A stretch of 32,695 bases of DNA. Origin: a virus. The stretch covers positions 1-32,695 of IMG/VR virus record IMGVR_UViG_3300008110_000593. One strand, given 5' to 3'. The number at the start of each line of letters is the position of its first letter. The first letter of the stretch is position 1. A model generated the notes under the pieces. The model was given only the letters and a program-made list of their open reading frames with translations, ran no database searches and was not told where the DNA came from. Shown here piece after piece: positions 7,262 to 27,733 of the stretch. A program made the translations under genes and the position numbers.

Positions 7262-7291
7262 GAAATTCCTTTTGCCATTAACTGCTACTAT

Positions 7292-7299
7292 TATTTAGC
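7292..7299 (-). promoter_or_regulatory. Late promoter octamer GCTAAATA for the glycan operon
   Basis: GCTAAATA on the minus strand fits the T4-type late -10 element (N-x-TAAATA) seen before many genes here. It lies 30 nt before the ATG at 7261, leaving room for a leader with an AAGGAA ribosome site. It is one half of a perfect 14-bp palindrome (7292-7305). Confidence 0.6.
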
Positions 7300-7305
7300 T
7301 AAATA
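7298..7305 (+). promoter_or_regulatory. Late promoter octamer GCTAAATA for the epimerase operon
   Basis: The other half of the palindrome. It is followed by AATTT and then the ATG at 7311, a 5-nt gap. With T4 geometry transcription would start at or next to the A of the ATG, so there is no room for a ribosome site. Confidence 0.6.
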
Positions 7306-7310
7306 AATTT

Positions 7311-8171
7311 ATGAAGAATATTGTGTTGACCGGTCATAAAGGCTTCATAGGAAGTCACTATTACAATAAAATCAAAGAGAATTTTAATGTTTCTACATTT
7401 GATTTAAAAGAGGGTAAAAATCTTTGCTTGCAAGAAGTAACCGCTACTGCGCCCGATTGTGACGTTGTTGTGCATATGGCTGCAACCAATGGAACTAAGC
7501 TGTTCTATGAGATCCCAACAGAAGTTGCATTTAACAATACTTTGCCAACTTTTAATTTAATTAATCGTTATAAAGAAACAAATACTAAATTTGTTTTTAC
7601 TAGCACTTGTGAAATATTTAATGGAGCAATTGACGCTGGACTATATCCTGTGCCCACAGACGAAAAAGTTCCTGTGATGTTTAATGACATTACAAATCCT
7701 AGATGGAGCTATAGTATACCAAAAGCACTGGGCGAAAACCTAGTAGCCAACTCAGGACTAGATTGGTTAGTAATACGTTATTTTAATATATATGGTCCAG
7801 GGCAGATTGATCATTTTATTTCAGAATTTGTTGATCGTGTAAGCAAAGGTGAATACTATATCAAAGGCAATGATACTCGTAGTTTTTGCTATGTAGACGA
7901 TGCTGTTGAAATAACACATCAATTAATCATGAATCATAAAAATTCTATAGTCAATGTAGGAAGACAAGAAGAAAATAATATAGCAGACGTTGCTAGAATA
8001 ATTATGGACTTAATGGGCGTGGATCCCAATAAGTTAGAAATATTACCTGGCCCAAAAGGTAGTGCAAAACGTAGATGTCCTGACACTGTATTAATGCAAA
8101 AATTAACAAATTTTAAAAATTATACATCTCTTAGAGATGGACTAAAAACAACTGTAGAGAGTTTATTATGA
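7311..8171 (+). CDS. NAD-dependent nucleotide-sugar epimerase/dehydratase (extended SDR)
   Basis: 286 aa. VLTGHKGFIGSH (5-16) is the NAD-binding G-x-x-G-x-x-G loop, FTSTCEIFNG provides the catalytic Ser/Thr region, and YSIPK (134-138) is the catalytic Y-x-x-x-K. RYFNIYGPGQ is the usual extended-SDR motif after the catalytic helix. The protein probably epimerises or dehydrates an NDP-hexose; substrate cannot be fixed. It feeds the neighbouring glycosyltransferases. First gene of a plus-strand trio; its stop overlaps the next ATG (ATGA at 8168). The ATG lies 5 nt after a late-promoter octamer with no Shine-Dalgarno sequence. Confidence 0.87.
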   Translation: MKNIVLTGHKGFIGSHYYNKIKENFNVSTFDLKEGKNLCLQEVTATAPDCDVVVHMAATNGTKLFYEIPTEVAFNNTLPTFNLINRYKETNTKFVFTSTCEIFNGAIDAGLYPVPTDEKVPVMFNDITNPRWSYSIPKALGENLVANSGLDWLVIRYFNIYGPGQIDHFISEFVDRVSKGEYYIKGNDTRSFCYVDDAVEITHQLIMNHKNSIVNVGRQEENNIADVARIIMDLMGVDPNKLEILPGPKGSAKRRCPDTVLMQKLTNFKNYTSLRDGLKTTVESLL

Positions 8172-8959: not shown

Positions 8960-10509
8960 ATCCAAAAATTCTTTTAGTATATCCTAATCTTCCTTTAATG
9001 ATGGCTCCTGCTATCAGCATGGGGATTTTTAATGCAATATGCAAAAATGAAGGATGTGCAGTTGAAATTTTTGAAACTACACAGTACAGTGATGCATACT
9101 CTAATCGTCACATACGCATGACAGAAATTGGCGCTAATCGTCCTAACAAAGATGACGAAGTCAAAGATATGTTTCATATTCAGCCAACTAGTGAAATTGT
9201 TCCAAACTTTATAAATCATGTAAAAACTTTCAAACCTGACTTAATTTTAATGGGTGTGCAAGAAGATGTTTGGGGCATGTCTTTAACGCTGTTAGATGCA
9301 ATTAAAGATTTAAATGTTGATCATATCCTTGGCGGAGTGTTCCCTACAAGTGCTCCGCAGATAGTTTTAGGCAATCCTTTAGTAAAACGTATAGGTATGC
9401 ACGAAGGTGAAAATATTGTGCTAGAAGCCATAAATTGCCTTAAAAATGGTGATAGTCTAGATACTGTTGCAGGCACATGGTGGAAGGATCGATTTGGACT
9501 TGTTCATAAGAACCCCTTGCCTCAACTCTGCGACATTACTAAGGTAACACCTGACTTTACTTGTTTTGCTGATTATCGCTGGCAACGCCCTATGGGTGGA
9601 AAAATCTTCAAAAGAGCAGTATCAATGGAGACTTATAGAGGGTGTCCCTATAACTGCACATACTGCAATAGTCCTAACACAAGAAACTTTTCTAAGGCGG
9701 CTGGTACTGGCAACTTCATGCGGCGCAAGTGTGTTAAGACCATTGAGAGAGATTTACTCTACTACAAAGAGCTTTATGAGCCTGACCTTATAATGTTCCA
9801 AGATGACAGCTTTTTGGCCAGGCCGAAACGTGAAATCTTTGAATTTTGCGAGATGTGGAGCAAGTACAAAATACCATTTTGGTTCAACACTAGAATTGAG
9901 AACTGTGCTCCTGATGTACTGGCTGCACTCAAAGAAGCGGGTGTGTATCGTATGACATTTGGTCTTGAGAGTGGTAATGAGGAATATCGATCAACAGTGC
10001 TAAAACGTGCAGTGACCAACAAAAAGTACCTAGAATACTTTGATTATATCAATGAAAGCAACATACCATACAGCCTTAATGTAATCATAGGTATGCCGTT
10101 TGAAACTCGGAGCATGGTTTCGATGTTTCAACCATACCATGGTACAGATTTGAGGGCCATGGCAGTAGAAAATGGATTTTTACCTGAAAATTTCATCAAT
10201 GGTCAAGACAGCTCTGAGATGGGTGGTGGCTACCTCGATTCGTGGGCTCTTCGGATGCCACAGCCTTACCTTCAGCCTAATGAAGTGAAAGCACTCACTC
10301 GAACCTTTGCTCTTTATGCTCACTTTGGTCGCGAGCACTATGATGAAATTTACCGTGCAGAGACGGATGATGAGGTGTATAAACGCCTAATGACCCAGTA
10401 CCAACATGAATTCTTTGGGGATATTCAGCAAGGCGGCGCAGACCGGATTAACTCCAAGTACTGCGCCGTGCATGATGCATCAAGCACCTATAACTTTGTA
10501 ACTGCTTAG
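8956..10509 (+). CDS. B12-binding-type radical SAM protein, with probable internal deletion
   Basis: 517 aa, GTG start overlapping the upstream TGA as GTGA. Residues about 1-170 look like a cobalamin-binding Rossmann domain, but the usual D-x-H-x-x-G is VQEDVWGMSL with no His, so B12 may not be bound. CPYNCTYC (230-237) is the radical SAM C-x-x-x-C-x-x-C cluster motif, and TFGLESGNEE and VIIGMPFETR follow as expected. Directly after GMPFETRSMV (388) comes SMFQPYHGTDLR. In relatives a further helix and strand of roughly 20-30 residues normally separate these motifs, so an in-frame deletion near 10120 is likely. GC content rises from about 33-42% in the first third to about 50-60% in the last third. 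Function unknown; possibly C-methylation or another glycan-linked reaction. Confidence 0.83.
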   Translation: MNPKILLVYPNLPLMMAPAISMGIFNAICKNEGCAVEIFETTQYSDAYSNRHIRMTEIGANRPNKDDEVKDMFHIQPTSEIVPNFINHVKTFKPDLILMGVQEDVWGMSLTLLDAIKDLNVDHILGGVFPTSAPQIVLGNPLVKRIGMHEGENIVLEAINCLKNGDSLDTVAGTWWKDRFGLVHKNPLPQLCDITKVTPDFTCFADYRWQRPMGGKIFKRAVSMETYRGCPYNCTYCNSPNTRNFSKAAGTGNFMRRKCVKTIERDLLYYKELYEPDLIMFQDDSFLARPKREIFEFCEMWSKYKIPFWFNTRIENCAPDVLAALKEAGVYRMTFGLESGNEEYRSTVLKRAVTNKKYLEYFDYINESNIPYSLNVIIGMPFETRSMVSMFQPYHGTDLRAMAVENGFLPENFINGQDSSEMGGGYLDSWALRMPQPYLQPNEVKALTRTFALYAHFGREHYDEIYRAETDDEVYKRLMTQYQHEFFGDIQQGGADRINSKYCAVHDASSTYNFVTA

Positions 10510-13434: not shown

Positions 13435-13743
13435 TTATCTTAAGCCAGCCAATTCTTTCATTCGTTGAAATTCAGGATCGAACTGTTGCGGTGACTGTTC
13501 CATTTGAAATTGTTCAAATGTTTGATTAATCCGTTCTATAAACTGCTTGGCTGGTTCTATGAACGACTCGCCATAATCTTTTTCGATAGCAGTAAGAACA
13601 GCAGTTTCACCTTTGGGGAACGTACCTGTGTTTCTGTCATATAAAGAGAGAACAAACTCTGTGACTGGCACTTTCTTCTCAAGGGTGATTTGGTCGTCAC
13701 CATTAGGATGTGGAACCTTGTCGCCTTTCTTTTTGCCTTGCAT
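13435..13743 (-). CDS. C-terminal domain of a split (frameshifted) structural/hypothetical protein
   Basis: 102 aa. It can be read from the ATG at 13743, but there is no Shine-Dalgarno sequence and the ATG lies in an A-run inside the upstream frame. It overlaps the 13557-15287 frame by 187 nt. The segment PVTEFVLSLYDRNTGTFPKG followed by ETAVLTAIEKDYGE looks like a compact domain that I associate with the C-terminal end of a longer marine-phage protein. One added base in the A5 run at 13743-13747 would fuse the two frames into a single 617-aa product. It is therefore probably not an independent gene, unless expressed by a -1 ribosomal shift or re-initiation. Confidence 0.6.
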   Translation of the reverse strand: MQGKKKGDKVPHPNGDDQITLEKKVPVTEFVLSLYDRNTGTFPKGETAVLTAIEKDYGESFIEPAKQFIERINQTFEQFQMEQSPQQFDPEFQRMKELAGLR

Positions 13744-15287
13744 TTTTGCTGTATGTAATGTGTCTTACTTTGTGTATCTAGTACTGCTTTTCTTGTAGCA
13801 CCAAATGCTTCAATAGAAGTTAACATAAATCCATTGCCTAAATCTTGTTGTCCAGTATCTTCTTTGGTATCATCACCTGATGATAATGCGCCTGCTTCTA
13901 AATCTTCAGCCCATGATTCAAAATCTTGGAATGCACCTTTGATTCTTTCAAGAGTTGATTTAACATCGTTGCCTTTGCCTTTGTCATGATCAATGCTATC
14001 TACTTGCATATTAGCAGTACCTTTAAGACCAAACTTCTTTGCAATCTGTTGTACTTCTGGAGTCTCTGGTAAGCGTTTTTCTTTAACGTAAGAATATAAA
14101 CACTCTAGTTCATTGCCGTTACACGAAGCTAAAACTCTTCCAGCGGCTGTCTTGTCGCGTGTTTGAGTAACAATGTGTTTTGCTAATATGGTTTTAGCAT
14201 CTTCTTCTTCTTTACTACCAAATATTGCATCACCGATTGCGCCAGCTGCTTGTCCAACACCTGATTTAAATTTGTCCCAAGTTGGGCCTTCACCTAATAA
14301 GTCATCTGGACCCAGTTCTTTTGCTTTCGTATGTTCGCTTACTAGTCTATAAATGTATGGAAATACATCTTTAAGTTCTTCATTAAATTGACGAATAGTT
14401 AATTGGTCAATCCAATTTTCTGCAACATCGCTAGGTACTTCTTCCATCACAGGCACTGTGAATCCAGCAACTGCTTCTTTATAATATGTTTCTCTTTGTA
14501 GTCCGTGTATGGCAGATTTTACTGTAACAATTCTTTCATTAACTGCATCTAGATAATCACTAAGACCTTCTGCCATTACACTTGAACGACCCATGTATGT
14601 TTTAAATTTCTTTAGCTTAGATAGTTCTTCGGATAAACTTGTAATGTGTGATCCAAAGTCATCAAATGGCTTGCCACCTTCGCCTACATGACGAGCCATT
14701 GCTCTTGCTCCGTTTAAGTGACGGTATGGATATTTGAATCTTTCACCTTCGGAGCTTTCAATATAGATGCTTTCAATGTGCTGTGTTCTACCAGCTGGCA
14801 TCACTTGATTAATAGGTTGGCTATGTTTTATAGCTAGTCGAGCATTGCCGACATCTTGGTAACTAGTTCTACTAGTACCATACATTTTAGATTCTACCAT
14901 TGTATCTTCTCCGGTCCGGTTTGTTGCGAGAAATTTATAATCTCTTTTATCTAGATTTGATTTTGTAATATTGCGAGTATCAAAATTTAGCAAACGCTTT
15001 CTGCTAAATTGACGTAATTCTTTTAAAAATTCATACCAATGTTGACGTGTTGCTGTATCTTCGTTTTCAGCAAAATCATCACTGTACATTACTGATATAG
15101 TTTTTTCGTCAAGACTAACACTTACTTTACCTAGGCTTCTATCACCTTCTTTATAATCAAAATCAAAGAAACGAGCCTCTTTTGGAACGTTAGTTACCTC
15201 ACCGCTATCATTACCAATAGTGATGGTGGGGAATCTTCCTCTAATCTTGTTGAATAATTCGTCTGCTATAAAATCTAGATTTTTCAT
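13557..15287 (-). CDS. Conserved hypothetical phage protein, probably frameshifted near its C-terminus
   Basis: Reads 576 aa from the ATG at 15287. The body (starts MKNLDFIADELFNKIRGRFP) looks like a real protein up to about residue 514 (...LDTQSKTHY). The last 61 residues (CKAKRKATRFHILMV onwards) are rich in K, R and S and correspond to another frame of the downstream domain gene, so they are probably artefactual. No enzyme motif was recognised. A segment with GVGQAAGAIGDAIFG is glycine/alanine-rich and may be membrane-active or a linker. The function is unknown; its place between terminase and gp32 suggests a virion or morphogenesis role. The ATG is 6 nt from a GATAAATA octamer, with no ribosome site. 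Confidence 0.72.
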   Translation of the reverse strand: MKNLDFIADELFNKIRGRFPTITIGNDSGEVTNVPKEARFFDFDYKEGDRSLGKVSVSLDEKTISVMYSDDFAENEDTATRQHWYEFLKELRQFSRKRLLNFDTRNITKSNLDKRDYKFLATNRTGEDTMVESKMYGTSRTSYQDVGNARLAIKHSQPINQVMPAGRTQHIESIYIESSEGERFKYPYRHLNGARAMARHVGEGGKPFDDFGSHITSLSEELSKLKKFKTYMGRSSVMAEGLSDYLDAVNERIVTVKSAIHGLQRETYYKEAVAGFTVPVMEEVPSDVAENWIDQLTIRQFNEELKDVFPYIYRLVSEHTKAKELGPDDLLGEGPTWDKFKSGVGQAAGAIGDAIFGSKEEEDAKTILAKHIVTQTRDKTAAGRVLASCNGNELECLYSYVKEKRLPETPEVQQIAKKFGLKGTANMQVDSIDHDKGKGNDVKSTLERIKGAFQDFESWAEDLEAGALSSGDDTKEDTGQQDLGNGFMLTSIEAFGATRKAVLDTQSKTHYIQQKCKAKRKATRFHILMVTTKSPLRRKCQSQSLFSLYMTETQVRSPKVKLLFLLLSKKIMASRS

Positions 15288-15293
15288 ATGTTG

Positions 15294-15301
15294 TATTTAT
15301 C
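15294..15301 (-). promoter_or_regulatory. Late promoter octamer GATAAATA before the 15287 gene
   Basis: GATAAATA followed by CAACAT and the ATG (6 nt). It overlaps the stop codon of the terminase gene (TGA inside TGATAAATA). Close enough that the transcript would be leaderless or nearly so. Confidence 0.6.
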
Positions 15302-16880
15302 AATAGTTGGTGCTAATGAATATCGGCATCGGCGGCTCGTAATCTTCAAAATTGTCTGTTTGATTAAAGGTGTTATACACTCTAGGATCCCAATCTTTGA
15401 GCACATCTATCATACGTATGGACAATAACGTAGCACTAACCAAGTCATCGCTTTGTCCTAATTTAGCTTGGTAGGAACTACCTGTAGCAATAAAGTTCTT
15501 AAACTCAGAAATTAGAGGTTTAGAATTAACTTCTAATTTATCATTTTCAACCATTGTTTTTAATCTACTACAGGCTGTAATTTTTGCAGAATGTGTAGTA
15601 TTAAATCCTTTACGGAATTTACGCACATGGCCTTTACGTATAGGTTCTGATACAAAAAGTCCTGGAATATTTTCTTCTCCAAAATCGTTAATTACAATTA
15701 GTGCTGCTTCGCCTATTCCGTTGTTTTCTACACTCCAGTAAATACCTGTAGAATTTTTAGTTTCGGATTCGATATATTTGCATATGTCTGCTAAAATTCT
15801 TATCTGACCAGGGATAGCAGTAGTATTGTGTTGCCACTCAGCTACTTGCTTATATGTAGGTAATTCTATAACTTGTATAGCTGCATTATTTCCTCCGGTA
15901 CCCATTGACGGGTCAAGTGCAACGCAATAGGTATTATCGCTTGTGGGCTTTTTATACCAACGAGTTTGGCCCATATTAAGAATAGGACTTTTACCGTCTA
16001 ATGATGCAAGTTTAATACTGCTAATCAGTGTTTCATCAAATACTAAGAATTCACAGCCGTACTCTCGACGGAATCTTTCTTCACCAATTCTACCAATTTC
16101 TTCATCGCGCCATTTGTCGTCTCTATCAGGGTGTTCACTCCAGTGACATGTAAATGCGTGAAACCCGTTAATGCCCACGTCTGATTCATTGCCATATTCG
16201 TCAAACTTTTTATCAGCATCTTTCCAAATTGTAGCAAATGTATCTTCGTCTGAGTTTGGAGTTGAAGTAATAATTGCTCTACCACCAGTTGCAAGTGTTG
16301 GTGATATTGACGTCCAAAACTCGTCTGCAATGTTAGGAGCAACGAATGCAAACTCGTCGCAGTATAAGAGTGATATAGACATACCGCGACCGGTATTACC
16401 TGTAGTAGTAGCACTTACAATACGACTACCGTTTTCAAATTCAATACTGCCTTTGTTATAATTGATAACACCTGCTCTAATGTGATCTGGACATAATTCG
16501 TACACATAGCGTATACGCTGCATAATTTCTTGAGCACCTGTATATTTGTGTGCTGCAATAAGAATTGTTTGATCAGGATGGAACATTGCGAACCACGCAA
16601 GATACACCGCGGCACAAGTAGTCTTTCCAGTCTGACGAGGTAACATGTTAACGTTGAATCTATAATTGTGATAAGATTCCATTAACCTTTCTTGATATTC
16701 GTACGGATCAAATAATAATTTGCCTTTTACCGGGTGCTGAATATATGCAAAGTTTTTTGCAAAATAAAGATAGCCCGTATCGGAGTCCATACACTTTAAC
16801 AAATCTTCAATTTGATTTTCAGTATATGTTTCTTTTTTATTAGCTTTTTTGGTTAATACGCCGTCTAGTGATTTACTCAT
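15300..16880 (-). CDS. gp17: Terminase large subunit (gp17-like DNA-packaging motor)
   Basis: 526 aa. ATPase: LPRQTGKTT (80-88) is the Walker A-type loop in the T4 style, LLYCDEFAF (171-179) is Walker B with the catalytic Glu, and STPNS is the coupling motif. Nuclease: ALDPSMGTGG (Asp323), SVENNGIG (Glu385) and QSDDL (Asp478/479) supply the RNaseH-like metal site. It translocates and cuts concatemeric DNA into proheads with the gp16 small subunit, which is encoded three genes upstream. Slightly shorter than T4 gp17 (610 aa). The ATG at 16880 lies 5 nt from AGTAAATA, with no Shine-Dalgarno sequence; a terminator abuts that promoter. Confidence 0.96.
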   Translation of the reverse strand: MSKSLDGVLTKKANKKETYTENQIEDLLKCMDSDTGYLYFAKNFAYIQHPVKGKLLFDPYEYQERLMESYHNYRFNVNMLPRQTGKTTCAAVYLAWFAMFHPDQTILIAAHKYTGAQEIMQRIRYVYELCPDHIRAGVINYNKGSIEFENGSRIVSATTTGNTGRGMSISLLYCDEFAFVAPNIADEFWTSISPTLATGGRAIITSTPNSDEDTFATIWKDADKKFDEYGNESDVGINGFHAFTCHWSEHPDRDDKWRDEEIGRIGEERFRREYGCEFLVFDETLISSIKLASLDGKSPILNMGQTRWYKKPTSDNTYCVALDPSMGTGGNNAAIQVIELPTYKQVAEWQHNTTAIPGQIRILADICKYIESETKNSTGIYWSVENNGIGEAALIVINDFGEENIPGLFVSEPIRKGHVRKFRKGFNTTHSAKITACSRLKTMVENDKLEVNSKPLISEFKNFIATGSSYQAKLGQSDDLVSATLLSIRMIDVLKDWDPRVYNTFNQTDNFEDYEPPMPIFISTNY

Positions 16881-18899: not shown

Positions 18900-18928
18900 A
18901 CAAGATTTCCATTAAGTGCTACTATTAT

Positions 18929-18936
18929 TATTTAGC
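18929..18936 (-). promoter_or_regulatory. Late promoter octamer GCTAAATA for gp16
   Basis: GCTAAATA 29 nt before the ATG. The next bases (ATAATAGTAGCAC, then TTAATGG) closely match the leader at 7262-7299, differing by a short ATA insertion and one G/C change. Confidence 0.6.
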
Positions 18937-18944
18937 TTTAATTA

Positions 18945-19589
18945 TTAAAACGTATATTCAAAATTTTTAAAATCTTCTTGAAAAAAATCGTACACAAAAT
19001 CTTTAGTTTTTTGACTTTTGTAATAGTGTCGATAATCGTCCATCCTAGTAATGTTTATTTCTGGAAAATCTAATCTAGTATAAAACCAATCTTCCATTAT
19101 TTTAAAATCGTTTTCTAATGTTTCGTATTTAAAGATTGTAGTTACATATTTTGTATACTCAGTAAGACTGTTGTCTACTACCCAAAATTTTCTATGATCT
19201 TCAATACACTCTAATAGCCATTGCTCAAACGTTAATGACGTAAAATAATCCTGGGCTCTAACTGCTTCAATTCTTTGTTTTTCCCATTGCAAAATTTCTT
19301 GGTCAGTAATTAACTCAATTCTTTTTTGATCAACTTGTCTAAGAGCGTTAGCTTGATAATAAGAAAATGTACTTACTACACGATCGTAAGGATTTCTAAT
19401 TATTGTAAATGTTTCGCCAAGCGGTATGTTTTGAGAAATTAAATCTGAGGCACTTGCATGCATATTAAACAATACTGTTTGCTTATCGTGATGACGTATC
19501 CATTGGGTAAGACTTTGGCCTGCTGTCTTTGGTATATGTATGAATGTTTTTAGCGTATTATTTTTATCTCGAAACTGACAAGTTGACAT
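18945..19589 (-). CDS. Sulfotransferase-family protein
   Basis: 214 aa. FIHIPKTAGQSLTQWI (17-31 region) contains the 5'-phosphosulfate-binding loop, and IRNPYDRVVSTFSYY (64-78) is the 3'-phosphate motif of PAPS-dependent sulfotransferases (Sulfotransfer_2 type). Remaining conserved features include a C-terminal FKYETLENDFKIM segment. It would move sulfate from PAPS to a hydroxyl group, commonly on a carbohydrate. It sits between gp4 and gp16, inside the packaging block, which is an unusual place for an accessory enzyme. Its ATG shares a base with the upstream stop (TAATG), so it is coupled to gp4. No signal peptide, so it acts in the cytoplasm. Confidence 0.85.
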   Translation of the reverse strand: MSTCQFRDKNNTLKTFIHIPKTAGQSLTQWIRHHDKQTVLFNMHASASDLISQNIPLGETFTIIRNPYDRVVSTFSYYQANALRQVDQKRIELITDQEILQWEKQRIEAVRAQDYFTSLTFEQWLLECIEDHRKFWVVDNSLTEYTKYVTTIFKYETLENDFKIMEDWFYTRLDFPEINITRMDDYRHYYKSQKTKDFVYDFFQEDFKNFEYTF

Positions 19590-20026
19590 TATTTTTTTCT
19601 ACCTTGATGAAACATATCTCCCTCGTTTATAATTCTAAACTTAATGCCCTGTTGTTTACACCAAGCATATGCCGCTTCCCATTTAGCCTGATTAACTACC
19701 CATGCTGCTTGATTATGTCGACTTTTGCCAACCTTTTCTATTAGAGTTTGATTAGCTGGTTTAACTTCTATAAGTTCAACAAATTGTTTTCCTGATCTAT
19801 CTCCATACGAAATAAAAAAATCAGGTACATATATTGTGTATTTTCCAGTTAAAGGGTTTCGATAAGGAATCTGTACAGCTTCGCTGGCCCATTTTGTAAT
19901 TGAAGGATGCTCGTCGCACATTTTCATAAAAGCAAATTCCCAACTGCTTCTGTAAGTTGGGGTTCGCGTGCCTATATATTTTTCAGGGTTTTTTAGAGCA
20001 AATTTTCCCTGGGCAAACTTTGACAT
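19589..20026 (-). CDS. gp4: Head completion protein gp4-like, PD-(D/E)XK nuclease fold
   Basis: 145 aa. The N-terminal SKFAQGKFALKNPEKYIG and TYRSSWEFAFMKMCDEHP, followed by IPYRNPLTGKYTIYVPDFF, are close to T4 gp4. Nuclease-like residues are Glu30, Asp69 in VPDFF and the E-x-K in LIEVKPAN (87-89), as in TnsA-type endonucleases. In T4, gp4 acts on the DNA-filled head before tail joining. Spacing of 1 nt to the upstream stop shows coupling with the 20028-20402 gene. Confidence 0.9.
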   Translation of the reverse strand: MSKFAQGKFALKNPEKYIGTRTPTYRSSWEFAFMKMCDEHPSITKWASEAVQIPYRNPLTGKYTIYVPDFFISYGDRSGKQFVELIEVKPANQTLIEKVGKSRHNQAAWVVNQAKWEAAYAWCKQQGIKFRIINEGDMFHQGRKK

Positions 20027-27712: not shown

Positions 27713-27720
27713 TATTTATC
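27713..27720 (-). promoter_or_regulatory. Late promoter octamer GATAAATA for gp13
   Basis: One arm of the inverted repeat 27713-27733. Predicted start near 27707, giving an 11-nt leader that begins with CGGAG, so the ribosome site sits at the 5' end. Confidence 0.65.
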
Positions 27721-27725
27721 GTAGC

Positions 27726-27733
27726 GATAAATA
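27726..27733 (+). promoter_or_regulatory. Late promoter octamer GATAAATA for gp14-gp15
   Basis: Other arm of the inverted repeat, separated from the first by GTAGC. It is followed by TACAC and the ATG at 27739: exactly 5 nt, no room for a leader. Confidence 0.65.

Follow-up and report, generated by a model that had tools for sequence, protein, structure and literature searches.

The block that follows a late-type octamer in the leader of the small terminase (gp16) gene is a real conserved element, maintained far above its flanks, and the combination of octamer and block is specific, yet not exclusive to gp16 and to a glycan operon carried by the same virus. The commonest home found is the leader of the small-terminase gene in many uncultured water phages. 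The block appears as a form of 13-17 nt, AGTAGYA-KWTWAT, to which GG is added in gp16. Together, octamer NNTAAATA and start-of-transcript block probably constitute a two-part late expression unit of T4-superfamily phages acting in cis, and the data suggest that additional genes join the late programme by borrowing this unit. A leader recurring before terminase, glycan and halogenase genes would offer a handle on this wiring of accessory genes, and octamer plus block a sequence tag for finding such genes in metagenomes.

Two composite leaders in the window

The window is the whole stretch of viral DNA that was analyzed, positions 1 to 32,695 of IMG/VR record IMGVR_UViG_3300008110_000593. It belongs to the same species as IMG/VR record G012 (99.9% identity), in which both composite copies described here are present. 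On the minus strand, direct reading from 7299 gives GCTAAATA ATAGTAGCAGTTAATGG CAAAAGGAATTTC ATG (7261), and reading from 18936 gives GCTAAATA ATAATAGTAGCACTTAATGG AAATCTTGT ATG (18899), confirming the preliminary description of both leaders as an octamer followed by an ATA-rich stretch, AGTAGCA, one variable base and TTAATGG. The common segment has its 3' limit at TTAATGG; the Shine-Dalgarno-like site AAAAGGAA beyond it is found at the glycan gene only, gp16 being without one. The composite CTAAATA-N(0-8)-AGTAGCANTTAATGG has two matches in the whole window and none in 100 dinucleotide shuffles, and the glycan block scores 37.8 of 39.9 against a matrix built from gp16 leaders. The gp16 protein, encoded upstream of the large terminase, is 40.7% identical to its PA5oct homologue over 99%. 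Features of both loci are collected in Table 1.

Table 1. Coordinates of the features discussed, in the numbering of the window
Feature	Position	Strand	Basis or remark
Putative late-promoter octamer GCTAAATA of the minus-strand glycan operon	7292..7299	-	octamer class NNTAAATA; gp55-like sigma in same species
Conserved leader block ATAGTAGCAGTTAATGG, glycan operon	7275..7291	-	identical to gp16 leaders of other phages
Shine-Dalgarno-like site AAAAGGAA of the 7261 gene	7266..7273	-	3' of block, read directly
First gene of minus-strand glycan operon, 249 aa	6512..7261	-	glycosyltransferase-like by neighbourhood only
Second octamer GCTAAATA	7298..7305	+	5 nt before ATG of divergent operon; leaderless if T4 geometry holds
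Perfect 14-bp palindrome TATTTAGCTAAATA	7292..7305	.	two putative late octamers with common central GC
NAD-dependent epimerase/dehydratase, first plus-strand operon gene	7311..8171	+	PF01370, E 3.8e-29
Large terminase (gp17-like)	15300..16880	-	octamer 5 nt before ATG
Small terminase (gp16-like), 167 aa	18396..18899	-	phrog_445, E 1.9e-4
gp16 leader block ATAATAGTAGCACTTAATGG	18909..18928	-	3-nt ATA insertion relative to common form
Putative late-promoter octamer GCTAAATA of gp16	18929..18936	-	sequence
Sulfotransferase, between head-closure gene and gp16 leader	18945..19589	-	PF03567, E 5.7e-7; phrog_3347
Head-closure gene (gp4-like), usual upstream neighbour of gp16	19589..20026	-	phrog_218, E 4.6e-43

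Conservation of the block in gp16 leaders

The preliminary description had proposed a search in relatives; the composite, given a spacer of 0-12 nt, matched 45 IMG/VR viral-contig stretches, and the same pattern reversed matched none. Forty-two of these stretches lie before gp16-like genes and two are the glycan copy; at the remaining one (L016, with a longer spacer) no open reading frame was found behind the composite. A further gp16 set was fetched by protein, with no use of the motif (80 of 594, among the matches listed). Among these matches, NNTAAATA is present in 67 of the 72 distinct gp16 leaders and octamer plus block in 52 of them, with GATAAATAATAGTAGCATATAATGGA as the leader consensus. 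The exact composite of the preliminary description, with any first two octamer bases allowed, was found in 13 of 73 leaders among the matches listed, the difference between 72 and 73 arising from two slightly different duplicate rules. A BLAST search of the 31-nt consensus against named phages gave weak matches alone (lowest E listed 0.2) and was uninformative.

Pairwise identity across 45 gp16 clusters amounts to 88% in the block. It falls to 39% over the 20 nt upstream and to 36% from block to ATG, and at third codon positions of shared residues it is 60%; these 45 of 62 clusters were block-selected (less than 90% gp16 identity and at most six mismatches to the consensus). Octamer and block are separated by 1, 3, 4, 7 or 8 nt, with 4 nt in 43 of 52 leaders, and this variable distance makes the block a poor fit to a rigid promoter element. 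Among the matches listed, 20 of the 72 distinct gp16 leaders are without the block, the terminases possibly differing and the records being fragments, and none was found at gp16 of PA5oct, CBB or Atu_ph07, indicating that the block is not essential.

The commonest block form reads TATAAT or TATTAT, which could be taken for the -10 box of a hidden host sigma-70 promoter giving earlier expression besides the late promoter. The second base of a -10 box is normally among the most constrained, whereas here it is A in only about half of the gp16 sites and T (GTTAAT) at the glycan site of the window. Moreover, no conserved -35 or TGn is seen upstream in the leader sequences read, so that such a promoter is highly improbable. 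A MotA box plus -10 was also considered and dropped, since most leaders start with GATAAATA, not with GCT.

The octamer as a putative T4-type late promoter

The late promoter of T4 depends on gp55, gp33 and gp45, and the usual view of late promoters in T4-like phages is that of an octamer standing alone in front of core genes. Structural genes of three related records are preceded by NNTAAATA, mostly in the form GATAAATA, and 16 such octamers lie within the window. The octamer-to-ATG distance in four records is bimodal, with peaks at 4-5 nt and at about 16-28 nt, and octamers on the opposite strand of the same four records, taken as a control, show neither peak. A gp55-like late sigma factor (phrog_234) is encoded in 8 of 10 records, G012 among them. 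By sequence, therefore, the GCTAAATA octamer qualifies as a putative T4-type late promoter, and late transcription through gp55 is a prediction well supported on these sequence grounds.

According to the accessible part of PMC1524935, the T4 late octamer TATAAATA spans -13 to -6 and CTAAATA is the form described for Aeh1. The promoters described here share with that of T4 the octamer class, the position before structural genes and the presence of a gp55-like sigma gene. The T4 late promoter is described as an octamer alone, whereas here a conserved block follows at a few genes; likewise, the octamer searches in the accessible parts of PMC3037559 and PMC9004378 contain nothing beyond the octamer. 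The same part of PMC1524935 reports late promoters at no genes other than orthologues of T4 late genes, while here they stand before accessory genes as well.

Genes behind the octamer and block

With the gp16-leader matrix at more than 14 bits, the seven related records yielded the gp16 leader in all seven, the glycan copy in G012 and a weak site in G002. Of the other late-octamer sites in these records (139 after merging near-duplicates and removing gp16 and the glycan copy), one carries the block at a score above 6, at 122252 in G012 before a 301-aa gene. Column-permuted matrices gave a mean of 0.6 such sites among the 139, and at least one in 130 of 300 permutations; nor did the mean score over all 139 sites reach significance, with 30 of 300 permutations as high. 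On this count of 1 in 139, the block as a general late leader was rejected.

Across the loci collected, 94 distinct block sites comprise 72 at gp16 and 22 others. Sites outside gp16, in this set and in the later scan described below, were found with patterns that fix the block, two scans being targeted at block copies followed by AAGGA or GGAG, so their counts are not block frequencies at such genes. Tryptophan halogenases lie behind the block at five loci (L101, L178, L184, L222 and L259), and the further homes are an epimerase (L299), a conserved 95-aa gene, a 197-aa gene (L278), a 301-aa gene (L055), two small open reading frames and the glycan copy. When GGAG was required downstream of the block, a later scan yielded 23 loci: 20 precede an open reading frame and three do not. 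The genes at these loci include a nucleotide-sugar epimerase (L313), members of unknown families and a spanin-like gene (L311; L318, L319, L324 and L332 share its start). The motif thus marks more genes than the two initially described. A gp16 profile run on nine records with non-gp16 copies found no gp16; most of these records are fragments, and the run had no positive control.

The first half, CTAAATAATAGTAGCA, occurs at 66 distinct sites. All 54 of these 16-mer sites that continue into the second half precede an open reading frame in their own orientation; of the 12 that lack it, 8 precede an open reading frame. The random placement that the preliminary description had named as counter-evidence is not the case. 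The position of these sites also bears on packaging. As a pac-like site, the block DNA would be bound by the small terminase beside its own gene and the second copy would be a second site. The block does adjoin gp16, is nearly single-copy in related records and forms, in the window, direct repeats flanking the terminase genes; in T4, putative pac sites in g16 and g19 have been linked to gp16-dependent recombination (PMC9958956, as far as its accessible text goes). Against packaging, 54 of 54 sites sit just before same-orientation reading frames, unrelated genes included, and 20 of 72 gp16 leaders among the matches listed are without the block, although the terminases may differ and the records are fragments. 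Additionally, the 110-kb relative G042, whose record may be a fragment, has no copy within two mismatches and PA5oct none within one, so that a pac site is quite improbable and, like the hidden sigma-70 promoter, less likely than the late expression unit.

Two observations concern individual genes behind the block. At L184:592-3789, two tryptophan-halogenase genes stand in tandem, each preceded by octamer and block. The 95-aa gene (L183:1442-1726) and its homologues have no Pfam or PHROG match; it carries the block in several uncultured phages and is conserved in PA5oct, Atu_ph07, Phosso and SCTP-2.

Insertions at the head-closure/gp16 junction

The junction upstream of gp16 was surveyed in 74 of the 80 gp16 loci, six with little upstream DNA being left out, among the matches listed. 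The head-closure gene adjoins gp16 in 59 of the 74 and was not found in one, while the other 14 have an insertion between the two genes. At seven of these 14, gp16 has kept the block immediately in front of it, and the sulfotransferase-like or other genes lie farther upstream, as in the window. At two, it stands before the inserted gene, namely the halogenase of L101 and a NifU/IscU-like gene (by Pfam) of L146, where the block is degenerate. No block was found at the remaining five. A separate search located a 197-aa gene between block and gp16 in L278. Having an inserted gene behind the block, L101 and L278 indicate that an accessory gene can take over the gp16 leader, and such insertions may illustrate how accessory genes can come under this putative promoter.

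The junction is a recurrent insertion spot for accessory genes (window 18945-19589, L114, L138, L141, L101, L146 and L278), with sulfotransferases, a halogenase and a NifU/IscU-like gene as cargo.

The glycan locus and the origin of its leader

The first minus-strand gene has no Pfam match at E≤1 and no PHROG match, and comparison with solved structures gave nothing usable. The divergent plus-strand operon encodes the epimerase, a UDP-glucose/GDP-mannose dehydrogenase-like protein and a radical SAM protein. The two operons differ at their heads: the plus operon starts 5 nt past its octamer, whereas the minus operon carries the block followed by a ribosome-binding site. As the two octamers overlap, the promoters should be mutually exclusive at any instant.

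The glycan leader is letter-for-letter identical (25/25, the gp16-type GG included) to the leader that precedes gp16 in other phages, L001, L002 and L003 being examples, while the gp16 leader of the phage itself differs from it by the 3-nt ATA insertion and a different variable base. Copying from the phage's own present gp16 leader is thus unsupported, the closer match being with other phages. Neither octamer nor block stands within 100 nt upstream of the nearest relatives of the 7261 gene (L288 and L289, 56-58% identical), suggesting that the unit goes with this operon head rather than with the gene.

Instead of being copied, the leader could have evolved independently at the glycan operon under selection. 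Unrelated genes of distant phages do carry the same block within different flanks, and the common segment ends sharply on both sides. Identity at 25 of 25 positions with the gp16 leaders of relatives, down to the GG, is much to ask of convergence, and insertion behind the gp16 block offers a route of transfer; we regard convergence as conceivable but rather doubtful. Of the proposal that a copied control segment places accessory genes under late control, three elements stand: the octamer is of the late type by sequence, the unit precedes accessory genes elsewhere, and L101 and L278 have insertions behind it. The phage's own present gp16 leader is unsupported as the source, and the direction and mechanism of any copying are putative.

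Possible mode of action

In the reading we favour, a gp55-type octamer plus block would head the minus-strand glycan operon, and the operon should consequently switch on late together with gp16. Accessory genes would gain the unit by inserting just behind it at gp16, of which L101 and L278 are examples, or would receive it through a later transfer. With T4 geometry, transcription would start inside or at the beginning of the block, which would then represent both promoter-proximal DNA and the opening bases of the mRNA. That the block begins at this predicted start, with the same octamer spacing in 43 of 52 leaders, is consistent with a promoter-proximal or early-transcript role, in which it may act in cis on late transcript initiation or on early use of the message, upstream of a separate ribosome-binding site.

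No RNA structure was predicted in the four leaders examined (z-scores 0.44 to 1.35), and a structured RNA leader was rejected for these four. A leader peptide from the ATG in TTAATGG was rejected as well, some leaders reading TAACGG and the frame to gp16 varying. The conserved leader signal that had been proposed as an alternative to copying is partly supported, by conservation far above the flanks.

The block might also be an RNA operator, through which a translational repressor of the phage (RegA-like or gp16) would adjust the levels of gp16, spanin and accessory proteins. In the predicted message it would come first, at the 5' end; its spacing from the octamer varies, and anti-Shine-Dalgarno pairing is weaker in block-bearing gp16 leaders than in other late genes (mean -3.8 vs -5.8 kcal/mol). 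Against these points stand the lack of predicted structure in the four leaders, the inclusion among the conserved bases of a stretch that T4 geometry places before the start, and a regulator that is only postulated, making an RNA operator unlikely. More tentatively, octamer and block could define a small late regulon across T4-superfamily phages, an undescribed late-promoter subclass whose block is read by a trans-acting factor that distinguishes these genes from the rest of the late genes. The regulon would unite the small terminase and the spanin-like gene with surface- or metabolite-modifying genes gained horizontally, for which it would serve as a plug-in module; this extension of the cis-acting unit is possible, with the odds against it.

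Relation to known systems

The PeSL mobile regulatory cassettes of T4-like phages (Arbiol 2010; Comeau 2014; both as cited in the accessible part of PMC4503421) are likewise regulatory segments that recur before accessory genes and are tied to gene shuffling. They consist of an early promoter and a stem-loop, whereas here a late octamer precedes an unstructured leader (four leaders, leader only), and neither a conserved -35 nor an extended -10, as in an early (sigma-70) promoter of the PeSL type, was seen in the sequences read. The T4 pac sites of genes 16 and 19 resemble the present copies as short repeats around terminase genes, but in the accessible text of PMC9958956 the putative sites lie within genes, whereas this block lies in leaders, those of unrelated genes included. 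Moron insertions with their own promoter also combine an accessory gene with an expression signal; here the signal is the phage's own putative late promoter and leader. A literature search for the literal motif TAAATAATAGTAGCA found no paper, which does not prove it undescribed, and none of the related titles and abstract openings describes an octamer-block motif.

Additional features of the window

Near 13751 (around 13751-13757) the window lacks about 163 bp that G012 and G014 have, and near 10118 it lacks about 54 bp that G012 has. The gene at 13557-15287 encodes 576 aa in the window and 673 aa in G012. These differences reflect either strain difference or assembly.

Seven of the 16 NNTAAATA octamers in the window, including that of the large terminase, lie 4-7 nt before an ATG (7298, 15301, 16893, 18404, 21746, 25939 and 27726), so that with T4 geometry those late mRNAs would be leaderless or nearly so. 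Among the four related records, 18 genes begin 4-5 nt from an octamer, where the opposite-strand control is without a peak. A second back-to-back pair of late-type octamers, TATTTATCGTAGCGATAAATA, is found at 27713-27733 in the window, one side lying 5 nt from an ATG and the other having a leader, and pairs of a similar kind are also present in related records.
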